DNA of 64,000 nt from Leptolyngbya sp. BC1307 (GTDB lineage: Bacteria > Cyanobacteriota > Cyanobacteriia > Phormidesmidales > Phormidesmidaceae): positions 62,001 to 126,000 of the forward strand of contig NZ_NRTA01000008.1 in NCBI RefSeq assembly GCF_002286735.1, given 5' to 3'. The notes beneath the pieces are model-generated. The model searched no databases and was not told the DNA's origin. It saw nothing but the letters and a program-made list of their open reading frames with translations. Positions 21,742 through 27,763 of the stretch are shown here, one piece after another. Position numbers and translations under genes: made by a program. Every line of letters starts with the position of its first letter. Position 1 is the first letter of the stretch.

Positions 21742-22071
21742 CTACATCCTTTTGAGAACGTTGACCTTGGCTCTTTTGTCTGCCGTTAAGCCCTGTAGCT
21801 CTGCCATCTCTAGCCAGCCGTCTTTCACAAGCCTAGATAGCGTGTACAACAGAGAGTCCTCTCTGTTGTCATACTTTCCGTCAATGTCGTGTCTGCTGGC
21901 ACTCAGAAAGTCATGCAGTTGCCAGACATCCTCAGGTTCAGTGACTAAGCTTACTCTCTGTTGAACACTTCTGATCAGCGCCTCAACTTCGCTGCCATAA
22001 GCCTTCTTGAGCGCGGCTTCGGCGATTTTCTTTTCTGTCGTACTCCACTGAACTTCAGTTTGTTGCGTCAT
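21742..22071 (-). CDS. frp: Fluorescence recovery protein
   Basis: 109 residues, the same length as Synechocystis FRP. FRP binds the C-terminal domain of photoactivated orange carotenoid protein and speeds its return to the inactive orange form, detaching it from the phycobilisome and so ending non-photochemical quenching. The family signature is present around residues 45-65: VWQLHDFLSASRHDIDGKYD, containing the conserved Trp, His-Asp, Arg and the DGKYD turn. The end (LTADKRAKVNVLKRM) matches the family C-terminus. It lies 178 bp downstream of ocp on the same strand, the conserved neighbourhood in cyanobacteria. The gap leaves room for its own promoter, so it may be expressed separately. Confidence 0.93.
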   Translation of the reverse strand: MTQQTEVQWSTTEKKIAEAALKKAYGSEVEALIRSVQQRVSLVTEPEDVWQLHDFLSASRHDIDGKYDNREDSLLYTLSRLVKDGWLEMAELQGLTADKRAKVNVLKRM

Positions 22072-22249: not shown

Positions 22250-23209
22250 TCAGCGAACCAGGTTTAATAGCTCCTTGGGAGAAGCCAGCAAATCAATCGC
22301 TACAAAGAATATTTTACCATCAGGATTTAATAGGAACCGCCAAGCGATATTCATCCCAACCGCTGCGCCAAACCAGGGCGTTTGGCACTTGCCAGTGACT
22401 TTGACCTGAGTGTAGCCATCTTCAGCCGGTTCAGTTACGCCGCGCTCGGGCACCAGCTTCAGATTCTGACATTCTTCTTGGAAAAACCGCCGTACGGCTT
22501 CTTTGCCGACGACTGGCTTGCGGAAAGGCGGTTGCAGGGCTCCATCTGGCGCGAAGAGTTCGATCAGGGCGTCGAAGTCATTCGCATTCAGGTTGTTCAT
22601 GTAGCTGAGCACAGTGGCGTTATCAATGCCTTCAATGGAAACCTGAGTGCGCTGCCCAATCGACTGAGGGACGACTACAGGCTCAGAGACCCGCTCGTAG
22701 CTGCCGAGCTTGCTGGTGTCATAGCCCATGTCTACGACAGCGTTGCGCAAGACAGTGATTTGCTGACCTGACTCTAGCCCTCTGATCGTCTGCAGTACAG
22801 CAGCGGCATTGGCCGAGAGCTTATAGCCCTCAGGGATGGGGGCAACGAAGCCCTGTTCCATCCATTCGCCGAGTCGGTACCAAAAGCCTAGCTTGATGTT
22901 TGGCGTCCAGGTAGCGTAGGTTCTGGAGATCTCGGTATCGGCTCTGTTCGCCAGGTCACACATAACCTGTGACTGCTCTACAGGCGTCATTTTCTTGATT
23001 CTTTCCATGGTGAGCTCGGCAAACTGCATATTGGCAGCGCCGGGGGCAGCGATCGTGATTGCCTGCCCCATCTCCAGATAGGCAAACCAGATCAGGGCGA
23101 GCTGATCTTCATCACTGAGCTGAGCAAATCTGGTAATAGTCGCCGGCACCTCAGCAGCGGACAAGGTGTTGGGAAAGATATTACGAGCTTTATCAACGGT
23201 GTAAGTCAT
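22250..23209 (-). CDS. ocp: Orange carotenoid protein (OCP1 type)
   Basis: 319 residues, full length. A water-soluble blue-light photoreceptor that binds one keto-carotenoid across two domains and quenches phycobilisome energy when light-activated. N-terminal all-helical domain (about residues 15-165): IWFAYLEMGQ, MCDLANRADTEISRTYA, FWYRLGEWMEQGF and VLRNAVVDMG. A linker follows, then an NTF2-like C-terminal domain (about 195-319): IDNATVLSYMNNLNANDFDALIELF and TPWFGAAVGMNIAWRFLL. The Tyr (LSYM) and Trp (IAWRF) that hold the carotenoid keto group are both present, and so is the interdomain salt-bridge Arg in VLRNAV. With frp next door this fits the OCP1 clade. The promoter should lie in 23210-23638. 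Confidence 0.97.
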   Translation of the reverse strand: MTYTVDKARNIFPNTLSAAEVPATITRFAQLSDEDQLALIWFAYLEMGQAITIAAPGAANMQFAELTMERIKKMTPVEQSQVMCDLANRADTEISRTYATWTPNIKLGFWYRLGEWMEQGFVAPIPEGYKLSANAAAVLQTIRGLESGQQITVLRNAVVDMGYDTSKLGSYERVSEPVVVPQSIGQRTQVSIEGIDNATVLSYMNNLNANDFDALIELFAPDGALQPPFRKPVVGKEAVRRFFQEECQNLKLVPERGVTEPAEDGYTQVKVTGKCQTPWFGAAVGMNIAWRFLLNPDGKIFFVAIDLLASPKELLNLVR

Positions 23210-25219: not shown

Positions 25220-25705
25220 CTAGTTGGGAACAACCTGAACGATTAGCGATCGCCGATCAAACGTCTGCACCTTGCTCACTTTCGAGAGATCTTCCACCAC
25301 TCGGTTGAGCAGGTCGGTAGCGCGATCGCGGTGCTGGTGTTCACGACCTCGCAGCCGTACCTGAAACTTCACCGAATCGCCCCGCTCCAGCCACGCCAGG
25401 GCTTTGTCAATTCTCACCTGGTAGTCAGAGTCACCCACGTTTGGCCGCAGCCTGACTTCTTTGACTGACGTGCGAGCGCTTTGCTTTTGGCGCTTGCGAC
25501 TTTGATACTGGTGTTTGCCGTAGTCCAAAATTTTGGCGACAGGCGAATCTTCGTCCGGTGAGACCACCACAAGGTCAAGTTTGGCAGCCTTAGCCAAAGC
25601 CAGCGCCTCTGACGTATCCGTCAGGCCGCGATTGGTGCCTTCGTTATCAATCAGAAGAACCTGTGCGGCTCGGATCTGTTGATTGATGAGTGGTTTTTTA
25701 GCGAT
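25220..25705 (-). CDS. infC: Translation initiation factor IF-3, divergent paralogue, likely ATC start
   Basis: IF-3 binds the 30S subunit, keeps it apart from 50S and proofreads start-codon pairing. The conserved N-domain start (PLINQQIRAAQVLLIDNEG, then NRGLTDTSEALALA) continues upstream of the first ATG (25597), so the gene must start earlier. The frame has no ATG, GTG or TTG before the in-frame stop at 25718-25720. An ATC at 25703-25705 sits eight bases after GAGG, the expected place. AUC or AUU starts are known for infC in other bacteria and allow autoregulation. The product is 161 residues: N-domain, linker with DYGKHQYQSRKRQKQ, C-domain with VKEVRLRPNVGDSDYQVR and FQVRLRGREHQH. It is shorter at the C-terminus and more divergent than the main cyanobacterial IF-3, so probably a second copy. 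Confidence 0.85.
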   Translation of the reverse strand: MAKKPLINQQIRAAQVLLIDNEGTNRGLTDTSEALALAKAAKLDLVVVSPDEDSPVAKILDYGKHQYQSRKRQKQSARTSVKEVRLRPNVGDSDYQVRIDKALAWLERGDSVKFQVRLRGREHQHRDRATDLLNRVVEDLSKVSKVQTFDRRSLIVQVVPN

Positions 25706-25817
25706 TGTATTTTCCTCTTAAAGAACGCAACAGGGATGGGAGTCAATAGGTAACCCACTGTAAACAGGTTAGGCTGATAATGGCTAAATAAAATGAGCCC
25801 TGATCGAGTGCTTCATC

Positions 25818-25837: not shown

Positions 25838-25975
25838 CCGATTGATAGCACGCATCGTTGATTACATATGTATAGGCTATTTTAAACCAACTTGCCAGGG
25901 TGAACTCACACCCCGGCAATGTGTCTTTACAAACCTAGCAAAACCAGACCCGCAAGTTATCTACCCAGAGGCAAA

Positions 25976-27763
25976 TTAGATGCGGGCGCAGCCCCCGTCT
26001 AAGAGAGGAACGGTCATGCTGAAGTTTTCACCATAGGTGAGCTTTTGCTCTTCTAAAATGCCCAGGGCAATCTGCTCTCCTAGCCGCATCGACTCGTAGT
26101 AGTCGGTGAAGTAGTGAACGCCTGCCCAGTCGCGGCCAATGGCAATGTTGGCTGCGAGCTTGTTCAGTTCGCCCTCTACCGTTAGCGTCAGCGTACTGTC
26201 TTGAACGGACTCTAGCTGAGTACCGTTGCGAGAAACCACATAGGGCTGAGGCAGGACGTAGCCATGGTCAAAGAAGGCTTTGAGAATGGTTATGCAGGCC
26301 CCGGCGACCGTGGCATGGCCAGCGCCGTAGGAAGGGTGCATGGGCGATCCCTCAGGAAAGGCCATCGGCAGCAGATAATTTTCGCCGTCGAACTCTTGCT
26401 TGAGGCGATCGCTGCAGCCGTCGGCACTGAGTTCGGCCAAAAACTTTTCGTTTTGAACCCGGTTGTGCTGCGATACCTGGTGCAGGGTGTCGCTAATTTT
26501 ATTGCTGAGCTGAGAAACCGGGGCCAGGTTGGGAGCTTGAGTCTCACGCCACTGGTGAATGCGGCCAGCGATCGCCTCAGGGCGCAGCCGCCGGTGCACA
26601 TTAAACTTTTGATAGCGAACGGCTTTGAGCGCGCGGGTGGCCACTTCGGTAACCAGCGATAGAATGTGCGGGCCGCCAAAGTGAGCAAAGCCCTGCTGAT
26701 GGTCTTGGCGATCGCGCCCCTGAAAGGGAACGCCGGGATCAAAGGGAACTTTGAGCGCCATCAGGGCCAGGGTGGCGTTGAGATACGCCTGATAGAGAGC
26801 GTCGTAGTGAACGTAGGTGGCCAAGTCGCGGGGGGTGGTGATAAAGCGATATTTGTTATCGCAATTTTCGTAGGTTTCTTTGCCGCGCAGATCAGCGCCA
26901 TTTTGCACATCGAGCCACCACTCCCAGGTGGTCATGTAGTCTTTGTAAGGGGTAGCCGTGCGTACTTTGTTGGTAAAGGCCATCGCGCCGTAAGCAACTA
27001 AACCATCGAAGACACCGTCGCGATCGCCGCCTAACTCGGGCGTACCCCGCAGCAAAAACTGAGAAATGTAAGGGCCAGTTGTGTCGCCGACAGCCACGCC
27101 GCGAAAGGCAGTTTGTGCGGTGAGCTGACCCCGACGACGAGCCTGAGCGGCATCCGTCAGCGGCAGCGGCGTATTCTGAAACCAGGTCAGCTTGTTGAGC
27201 CGGTCAATTGCAGCGCCCACTTCAGGGTTACAGCCAAAATCTACAAAGGGAACATCGCGCAGCAAGGCCATCTCATAAACTTCGGCGACTTCGGCAACCA
27301 GTTCGTCGCTGTCAAGGACCGGCGCAGGCGGCATGGTGATCGACTGACAATCTGGGCCTTCCAGGTCAAACAGTAAGCCAGCGCCTGCACTTTCCCAAGC
27401 TCGCACGTCTGCTTTATGCTGCTGAGTATAGTGAGATTTCCATTCAATTTGCTCCTGGGTTTCAGATCCTTTCGGCCCCAGGGGCGTATCTCGAAAGTCG
27501 CGCGAGTCGCCCGAATCAATTCCCCGGACAAACTGCTGATAGTCGGCAGAGCAACAGATCAAACCGTCTTTTTCATCGTGAGGCAGACCCTTGGTGTAGT
27601 TAGCCAGGTGGGAGGGCTGACCGGCTCGCTCTTTGTTAGAGACGTCTTCAAAGCGATAGCGTAGCTCTTCGCCGTTGGCCCAGTGCTGCGCATGGGCGCG
27701 GTCGTAGGCAACTTTAGCAGCAGCAGTTCTCAGGTCTAACGCTCTTTTCTTTCGAGATTCCAT
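25976..27763 (-). CDS. Vanadium-dependent haloperoxidase (red-algal bromoperoxidase type)
   Basis: 595 residues, the same size as Corallina bromoperoxidase and matching it along the whole length (AGLLFDLEGPDCQSI, RDLATYVHYDALYQAYLNA, VTEVATRALKAVRYQKFNV, GVHYF). The enzyme oxidises halide with hydrogen peroxide to a hypohalous species, using vanadate held by Lys, two Arg, Ser, Gly and His. Here the vanadate site is K386 and R394 (KFNVHRRLRPE), G482 and H483 (HPSYGAGH), R544 and H550 (GRDWAGVHYF). The Ser that normally hydrogen-bonds vanadate is Ala (A481). The acid-base His in MHPSY is kept. No signal peptide is apparent. The gene stands alone, with a GMC oxidoreductase on the same strand upstream beyond a transposase relic. 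Confidence 0.95.
   Translation of the reverse strand: MESRKKRALDLRTAAAKVAYDRAHAQHWANGEELRYRFEDVSNKERAGQPSHLANYTKGLPHDEKDGLICCSADYQQFVRGIDSGDSRDFRDTPLGPKGSETQEQIEWKSHYTQQHKADVRAWESAGAGLLFDLEGPDCQSITMPPAPVLDSDELVAEVAEVYEMALLRDVPFVDFGCNPEVGAAIDRLNKLTWFQNTPLPLTDAAQARRRGQLTAQTAFRGVAVGDTTGPYISQFLLRGTPELGGDRDGVFDGLVAYGAMAFTNKVRTATPYKDYMTTWEWWLDVQNGADLRGKETYENCDNKYRFITTPRDLATYVHYDALYQAYLNATLALMALKVPFDPGVPFQGRDRQDHQQGFAHFGGPHILSLVTEVATRALKAVRYQKFNVHRRLRPEAIAGRIHQWRETQAPNLAPVSQLSNKISDTLHQVSQHNRVQNEKFLAELSADGCSDRLKQEFDGENYLLPMAFPEGSPMHPSYGAGHATVAGACITILKAFFDHGYVLPQPYVVSRNGTQLESVQDSTLTLTVEGELNKLAANIAIGRDWAGVHYFTDYYESMRLGEQIALGILEEQKLTYGENFSMTVPLLDGGCARI

Follow-up and report, generated by a model that had tools for sequence, protein, structure and literature searches.

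A divergent IF-3 with a putative AUC start codon, the only IF-3 found in the genome of Leptolyngbya sp. BC1307, appears to have replaced the canonical cyanobacterial factor

Background

The initiation factor IF-3 is found in nearly all bacteria, and both non-AUG starts of its gene, infC, and control of infC by IF-3 itself are already known. The infC gene of E. coli belongs to the same family as the gene described here, has the same fold, and starts at a non-AUG isoleucine codon behind a Shine-Dalgarno sequence (ATT, confirmed here). The divergent gene, unlike that of E. coli, does not lie beside thrS, rpmI and rplT, and its product differs in having a short linker and no EGR motif; identity between the two proteins is 34–39% in structure-based rows and 37.7% by tblastn. 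Streptomyces infC, which encodes the sole, ancestral IF-3 and not a divergent replacement, shares the ATC start codon with our gene. According to PMC5472188, infC starts at ATT in E. coli and at ATC in Streptomyces, and such starts serve autocontrol in both, in E. coli by IF-3; in most Streptomyces species the annotation of the ATC start is wrong. The same feedback logic would be expected for the divergent gene. Canonical cyanobacterial IF-3 (A2) shares both domains with the divergent type and differs from it in forming its own clade and in having a conventional start, an EGR motif and a 20-residue linker.

Among the papers listed in literature searches on cyanobacterial and duplicated infC, IF-3 residues and autocontrol, none describes an AUH-start IF-3 lineage of its own in cyanobacteria, and those listed on cyanobacterial or duplicated infC report no loss of the canonical factor there. 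We consider it very likely, from sequence and comparative analysis, that the gene described here encodes the sole IF-3 of its genome, that of a Phormidesmis-group cyanobacterium, belongs to a divergent clade seen here only in cyanobacteria, starts at AUC and has replaced the canonical gene, with autocontrol as the expected consequence of its start codon.

Results and discussion

An infC gene with an ATC start

The window, the whole 64-kb stretch of DNA that was analysed, contains a minus-strand frame open from 25717 to 25220, the 5' end of which, with the preceding stop, reads TAA GAG GAA AAT ACA ATC GCT. Its features are as follows.

25220..25705, minus strand: infC, divergent type, 161 residues, from ATC (25705-25703) to TAG (25220-25222); open frame, TIGR00168, conserved start
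25714..25717, minus strand: Shine-Dalgarno sequence GAGG, 8 nt ahead of the ATC
25718..25720, minus strand: TAA that shuts the frame 5 codons upstream of the ATC (sequence and congeners)
25481..25687, minus strand: IF-3 N-terminal domain (PF05198, frame residues 11-79)
25262..25468, minus strand: IF-3 C-terminal domain (PF00707, residues 84-152), short at its end and without the EGR motif
25595..25597, minus strand: TTG, the first conventional in-frame start codon, rejected as the start
25722..25732, minus strand: leader motif TGTTGCGTTCT, immediately 5' of the stop and Shine-Dalgarno sequence (genus alignment)
25892..25919, minus strand: terminator-like hairpin (11 pairs; consensus scan) in the gap that separates infC from the gene upstream

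A preliminary description of this DNA had proposed the ATC behind GAGG as the start of an infC gene whose homology to IF-3 extends about 36 codons ahead of any conventional start codon, and the analysis agrees on both points. No in-frame ATG, GTG or TTG precedes position 25597, 36 codons into the frame, where the codon is a TTG and not the ATG originally reported. With initiation there the N-terminal domain would lose its first half, and the IF3_N score falls from 88.6 to 48.5 bits. In the window and six congeners a stop codon lies 5 codons upstream of the ATC (TAA, 25720-25718, in the window), with no other initiator codon between the two.

The start is conserved well beyond the genus. Among 41 relatives the aligned start codon was ATC in 28, ATT in seven, ATA in three and an ATC one codon earlier in the remaining three, while the 80 named genome-collection loci gave 64 ATC, 13 ATT and three ATA, even though the scoring of these 80 allowed any ATG, GTG or TTG within two codons to compete equally; none was picked. 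Every one of the 121 loci thus has an isoleucine codon at, or one before, the expected position. As the two sets share source genomes, the overlap was collapsed to 103 distinct 5' contexts, comprising 82 ATC, 16 ATT and five ATA, with no ATG, GTG or TTG. A G occupies position -10 in 100 of these contexts and GAGG with an 8-nt spacer is found in 73. The Shine-Dalgarno sequence is weak in a few Nostocales, where ATT and ATC also occur in tandem, making the exact start codon ambiguous in that order. One broken divergent frame (L080) has no usable start and falls outside the 41-locus count. In canonical infC, a conventional start codon was available in 32/32 frames examined, a count that leaves out L010 (664-residue frame).

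The codons between the ATC and the TTG are conserved as protein in every aligned relative, as the proposal of a start upstream of the TTG requires. Across seven congeners, codons 2–36 display 200 synonymous against 27 non-synonymous pairwise differences, with 3, 1 and 20 variable columns at codon positions 1, 2 and 3 respectively, and this synonymous excess and third-position variation indicate that the stretch is translated. The alternative, in which translation begins at the TTG at 25597 and yields a shortened IF-3 without half of its N-terminal domain, has in its favour that this is the first conventional in-frame start and that two Nostoc plasmid copies are publicly annotated with TTG starts lying 14 and 15 codons inside the aligned match. 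We give it almost no credence, since the loss of IF3_N score and the coding constraint upstream both oppose it, the first conventional start in the six congeners lies 45–46 codons in and not at this position, and the isoleucine codon with its Shine-Dalgarno sequence is conserved in 121/121 start-scored loci, if weakly as regards the latter in those few Nostocales. A translation start at AUC behind a strong Shine-Dalgarno sequence is accordingly strongly supported on sequence grounds. In a third Nostoc plasmid copy the TTG annotated as start precedes the beginning of the aligned match by 11 codons, so that the annotated start is TTG in 3/3 copies whose start region was read, exposing a systematic mis-annotation of the infC start. 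On an Azospirillum plasmid (L249, ~601), the sequence upstream of the infC homology offers ATA/ATC and no conventional codon, and the annotated start is 30 bases further in.

The GTTGCGTTCT part of the leader motif TGTTGCGTTCT does not vary among the seven congeners, the remaining near leader being variable in the genus alignment. The hairpin at 25892..25919, which resembles one visible in several congeners, is among three terminator-like sites observed by consensus scan in the region, where 1.3 would be expected. No Rfam match was found within the window, nor any sigma-70 promoter ahead of infC, the single site returned by the scan of the region lying on the other strand. A conserved operon partner was also rejected, as the downstream acyltransferase gene and the upstream 595-residue gene are common to the genus only. 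The latter (25976-27763, minus strand), which precedes infC in most members of the genus, has no Pfam match; by eye we take it to resemble the vanadium-dependent haloperoxidase-like phosphatases. Elsewhere in the window, a photoprotection pair is formed by adjoining minus-strand genes for an orange carotenoid protein (22250-23209; Carot_N 212 bits, plus NTF2) and a fluorescence recovery protein (21742-22071; FRP 138 bits).

The product is a two-domain IF-3 with altered features

The product scores 154 bits against TIGR00168 (cut-off 60) and matches both domain models, IF3_N (PF05198) at 88.6 bits (cut-off 26.9) and IF3_C (PF00707) at 73.9 (cut-off 34.8), and its AUU/AUC/AUA-type start behind a Shine-Dalgarno sequence is of the E. 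coli kind. The AlphaFold2 model (pLDDT 85.5, pTM 0.52) has the two-domain fold with a helical linker and matches IF-3 of E. coli, Thermus and Geobacillus, with Z 14–16 for full-length IF-3 chains, Z 15.1 for the C-domain (1tig) and Z 12.2 for the N-domain (1tif).

After collapsing identical rows, we compared residues and motifs in 100 divergent and 61 canonical proteins. Positions Y75, R99, R131 and R133 of E. coli are kept in all 100 divergent proteins and R147 in 98; the first three we take to be fidelity sites of E. coli IF-3. The C-terminal EGR (or DGR) motif is found in none of the divergent proteins, compared to EGR in 59 of the 61 canonical ones; it presumably contains R168 of E. coli IF-3. 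The interdomain linker is 16 residues long in 83/100 divergent proteins and 20 in 58/61 canonical proteins. Residue conservation is compatible with 30S binding and start-codon discrimination by the divergent IF-3; with EGR lost and the linker shorter, this discrimination may differ from that of canonical IF-3.

The only IF-3 found in the genome

The preliminary description called the gene a paralogue that hinted at an IF-3 additional to the main one, and suggested a search for canonical infC elsewhere. That search, using IF3_N, IF3_C and a canonical-cyanobacterial profile, found the window gene as the single IF-3 in a genome that is 99.99% complete in 222 contigs, and the label of paralogue is thus wrong here. 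The residual profile matches were weak, at 13.6 bits (loose cut-off) and 21 bits; the latter, a canonical-profile match on contig C75 of G000, was read out and recognised as NusA, not an IF-3. All seven genomes of the genus, including Phormidesmis priestleyi Ana, Phormidesmis cf. LEGE 11477, P. priestleyi ULC027 and Leptolyngbya foveolarum ULC129, have one IF-3 each, of the divergent type. Table 2 of PMC4971617 gives the number of infC BLAST hits for P. priestleyi BC1401 as one and makes no remark on type, which fits the reading of a sole IF-3.

It could still be argued that the gene is a specialised second IF-3 and that a canonical infC is present but unassembled or missed, given that the assembly is in 222 contigs, that both IF-3 types occur together in many other cyanobacteria, and that an unrelated 99%-complete genome (G290) likewise gives no canonical match at the cut-off used. 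This seems very improbable, as canonical infC is absent from all seven genomes of the genus and from genomes assembled in only 2 to 10 contigs (G063, G008, G076, G078, G002), nine relatives retain the canonical site with infC missing from it (see below), and IF-2 scores over the cut-off in 7/7 congeners. On the preferred reading, that of a sole IF-3, the divergent protein would have to act as the general IF-3 in genomes that possess no other.

A separate cyanobacterial clade

That the gene departs from the usual cyanobacterial IF-3, as the preliminary description noted, is confirmed by phylogeny. In a tree to which six relatives from the same phylum and twelve further bacteria were added, all 34 sampled divergent rows fall in one clade with 100/100 support and a long stem branch, outside the canonical cyanobacterial (A2) clade (21 rows, 99/99). 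A FastTree run of 170 rows, using the collapsed protein sets, agrees in placing all 100 divergent rows together. The trees and counts exclude the window-locus copies L001 and L002, a contig-end fragment (L026), a broken canonical copy (L078) and L080, in which the divergent infC of a 73%-complete draft (G029) is split across two frames.

Divergent IF-3 was found in 71/241 Cyanobacteriia genomes searched and, among the best 80 of 570 relatives, in Nostocales, Spirulina, Nodosilinea and Richelia; no member of the clade from outside the cyanobacteria occurs among these 80. It coexists with canonical IF-3 in many cyanobacteria. Two canonical-type genes occur together in a further genome (L197 and L198 in G175, 310 and 274 bits). 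Among the matches listed, plasmid and phage records from organisms other than Nostoc stay at or below ~42% identity, giving no sign there of a non-cyanobacterial donor, and three distant viral contigs show 29–35% identity. Divergent infC is carried by Nostoc plasmids L241, L242, L243 and L244, one of which was typed as conjugative and two as mobilizable, with an IS605-family transposase gene adjoining one copy and an IS630 transposase gene another. Plasmid carriage is a possible route of spread.

Probable repeated replacement of canonical IF-3

Beyond the window's family, 116 of the 117 Cyanobacteriia genomes have canonical IF-3, and the remaining one, G290, gave no match at the cut-off used. 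Among genomes of the family, the canonical profile finds it in only 12 of 47 (>269 bits) and the Pfam model in 12 of 50; the 12 include a contig-fragment pair (G011) and a broken copy (G031). The other 35 of the 47 give divergent-type matches only (124–143 bits), from one or two divergent genes each, and include assemblies of 2 to 10 contigs. Mapped on an rpoB tree of 30 genomes, this distribution requires four changes, placed in g11, g3, g1 and the group g5+g13+g14, a count drawn from a single gene tree in which several forks are weak.

Synteny points the same way. In this family, canonical infC is flanked by ilvN (opposite strand) on one side and by a large ORF of ~1000 residues on the other, and in nine genomes (G018, G078, G030, G034, G024, G019, G063, G010, G016) ilvN and the large ORF occur together with no infC match between them, leaving an empty site. 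Five other genomes without canonical infC have the large ORF (G076, G077, G021, G008, G032), with ilvN not found in the locus. The large ORF is absent from five tested members of g1, the window's own genus, and an empty site therefore cannot be demonstrated in either set. In G031, which also carries a divergent infC, the canonical gene (L078, 1941-2519) is broken, with its usual ATG out of frame, an in-frame TGA in the N-domain, and D at the otherwise invariant Y107 position, although this genome is a draft and sequencing error may be responsible. Together, genome content, synteny and the broken copy indicate takeover in several lineages, and the best reading is that AUH-start IF-3 repeatedly replaced canonical IF-3 in the window's family.

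Probable autocontrol

The claim that an AUC start makes infC self-limiting is probably correct, because IF-3 represses starts other than AUG, GUG and UUG. IF-3 on the 30S subunit would reject such starts, so that plentiful IF-3 would block translation of its own AUC-start mRNA, whereas scarce IF-3 would allow that mRNA to be translated, giving a homeostatic loop as in E. coli infC. Where a genome has both types, the divergent gene could be under repression by canonical IF-3 as well.

It is also conceivable that the AUC start simply reduces output with no IF-3-dependent feedback, since a protein without EGR and with a shorter linker may discriminate start codons poorly, and a strong Shine-Dalgarno sequence could compensate for a weak start. 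We regard this as unlikely: the invariant ATH in 103 distinct contexts, using all three isoleucine codons, suggests selection against AUG as such, and the putative fidelity residues Y75, R99 and R131 are kept. A self-limiting, AUC-start infC is thus the reading we retain.

The divergent IF-3, with its short linker, absent EGR and AUH start, falls outside every other group of rows sampled, be it canonical cyanobacterial, melainabacterial or from other bacteria. It is possible, though we hold it only tentatively and on balance with some doubt, that this IF-3 is functionally distinct and specific to cyanobacteria, and that within one family it took the place of the canonical factor on at least four occasions, bringing with it its own feedback and altered rules of start selection. 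The repeated swap of an ancestral gene supplies related genomes as natural pairs for studying how IF-3 governs the choice of start codon, and the same pairs bear on why IF-3 genes retain AUH starts.
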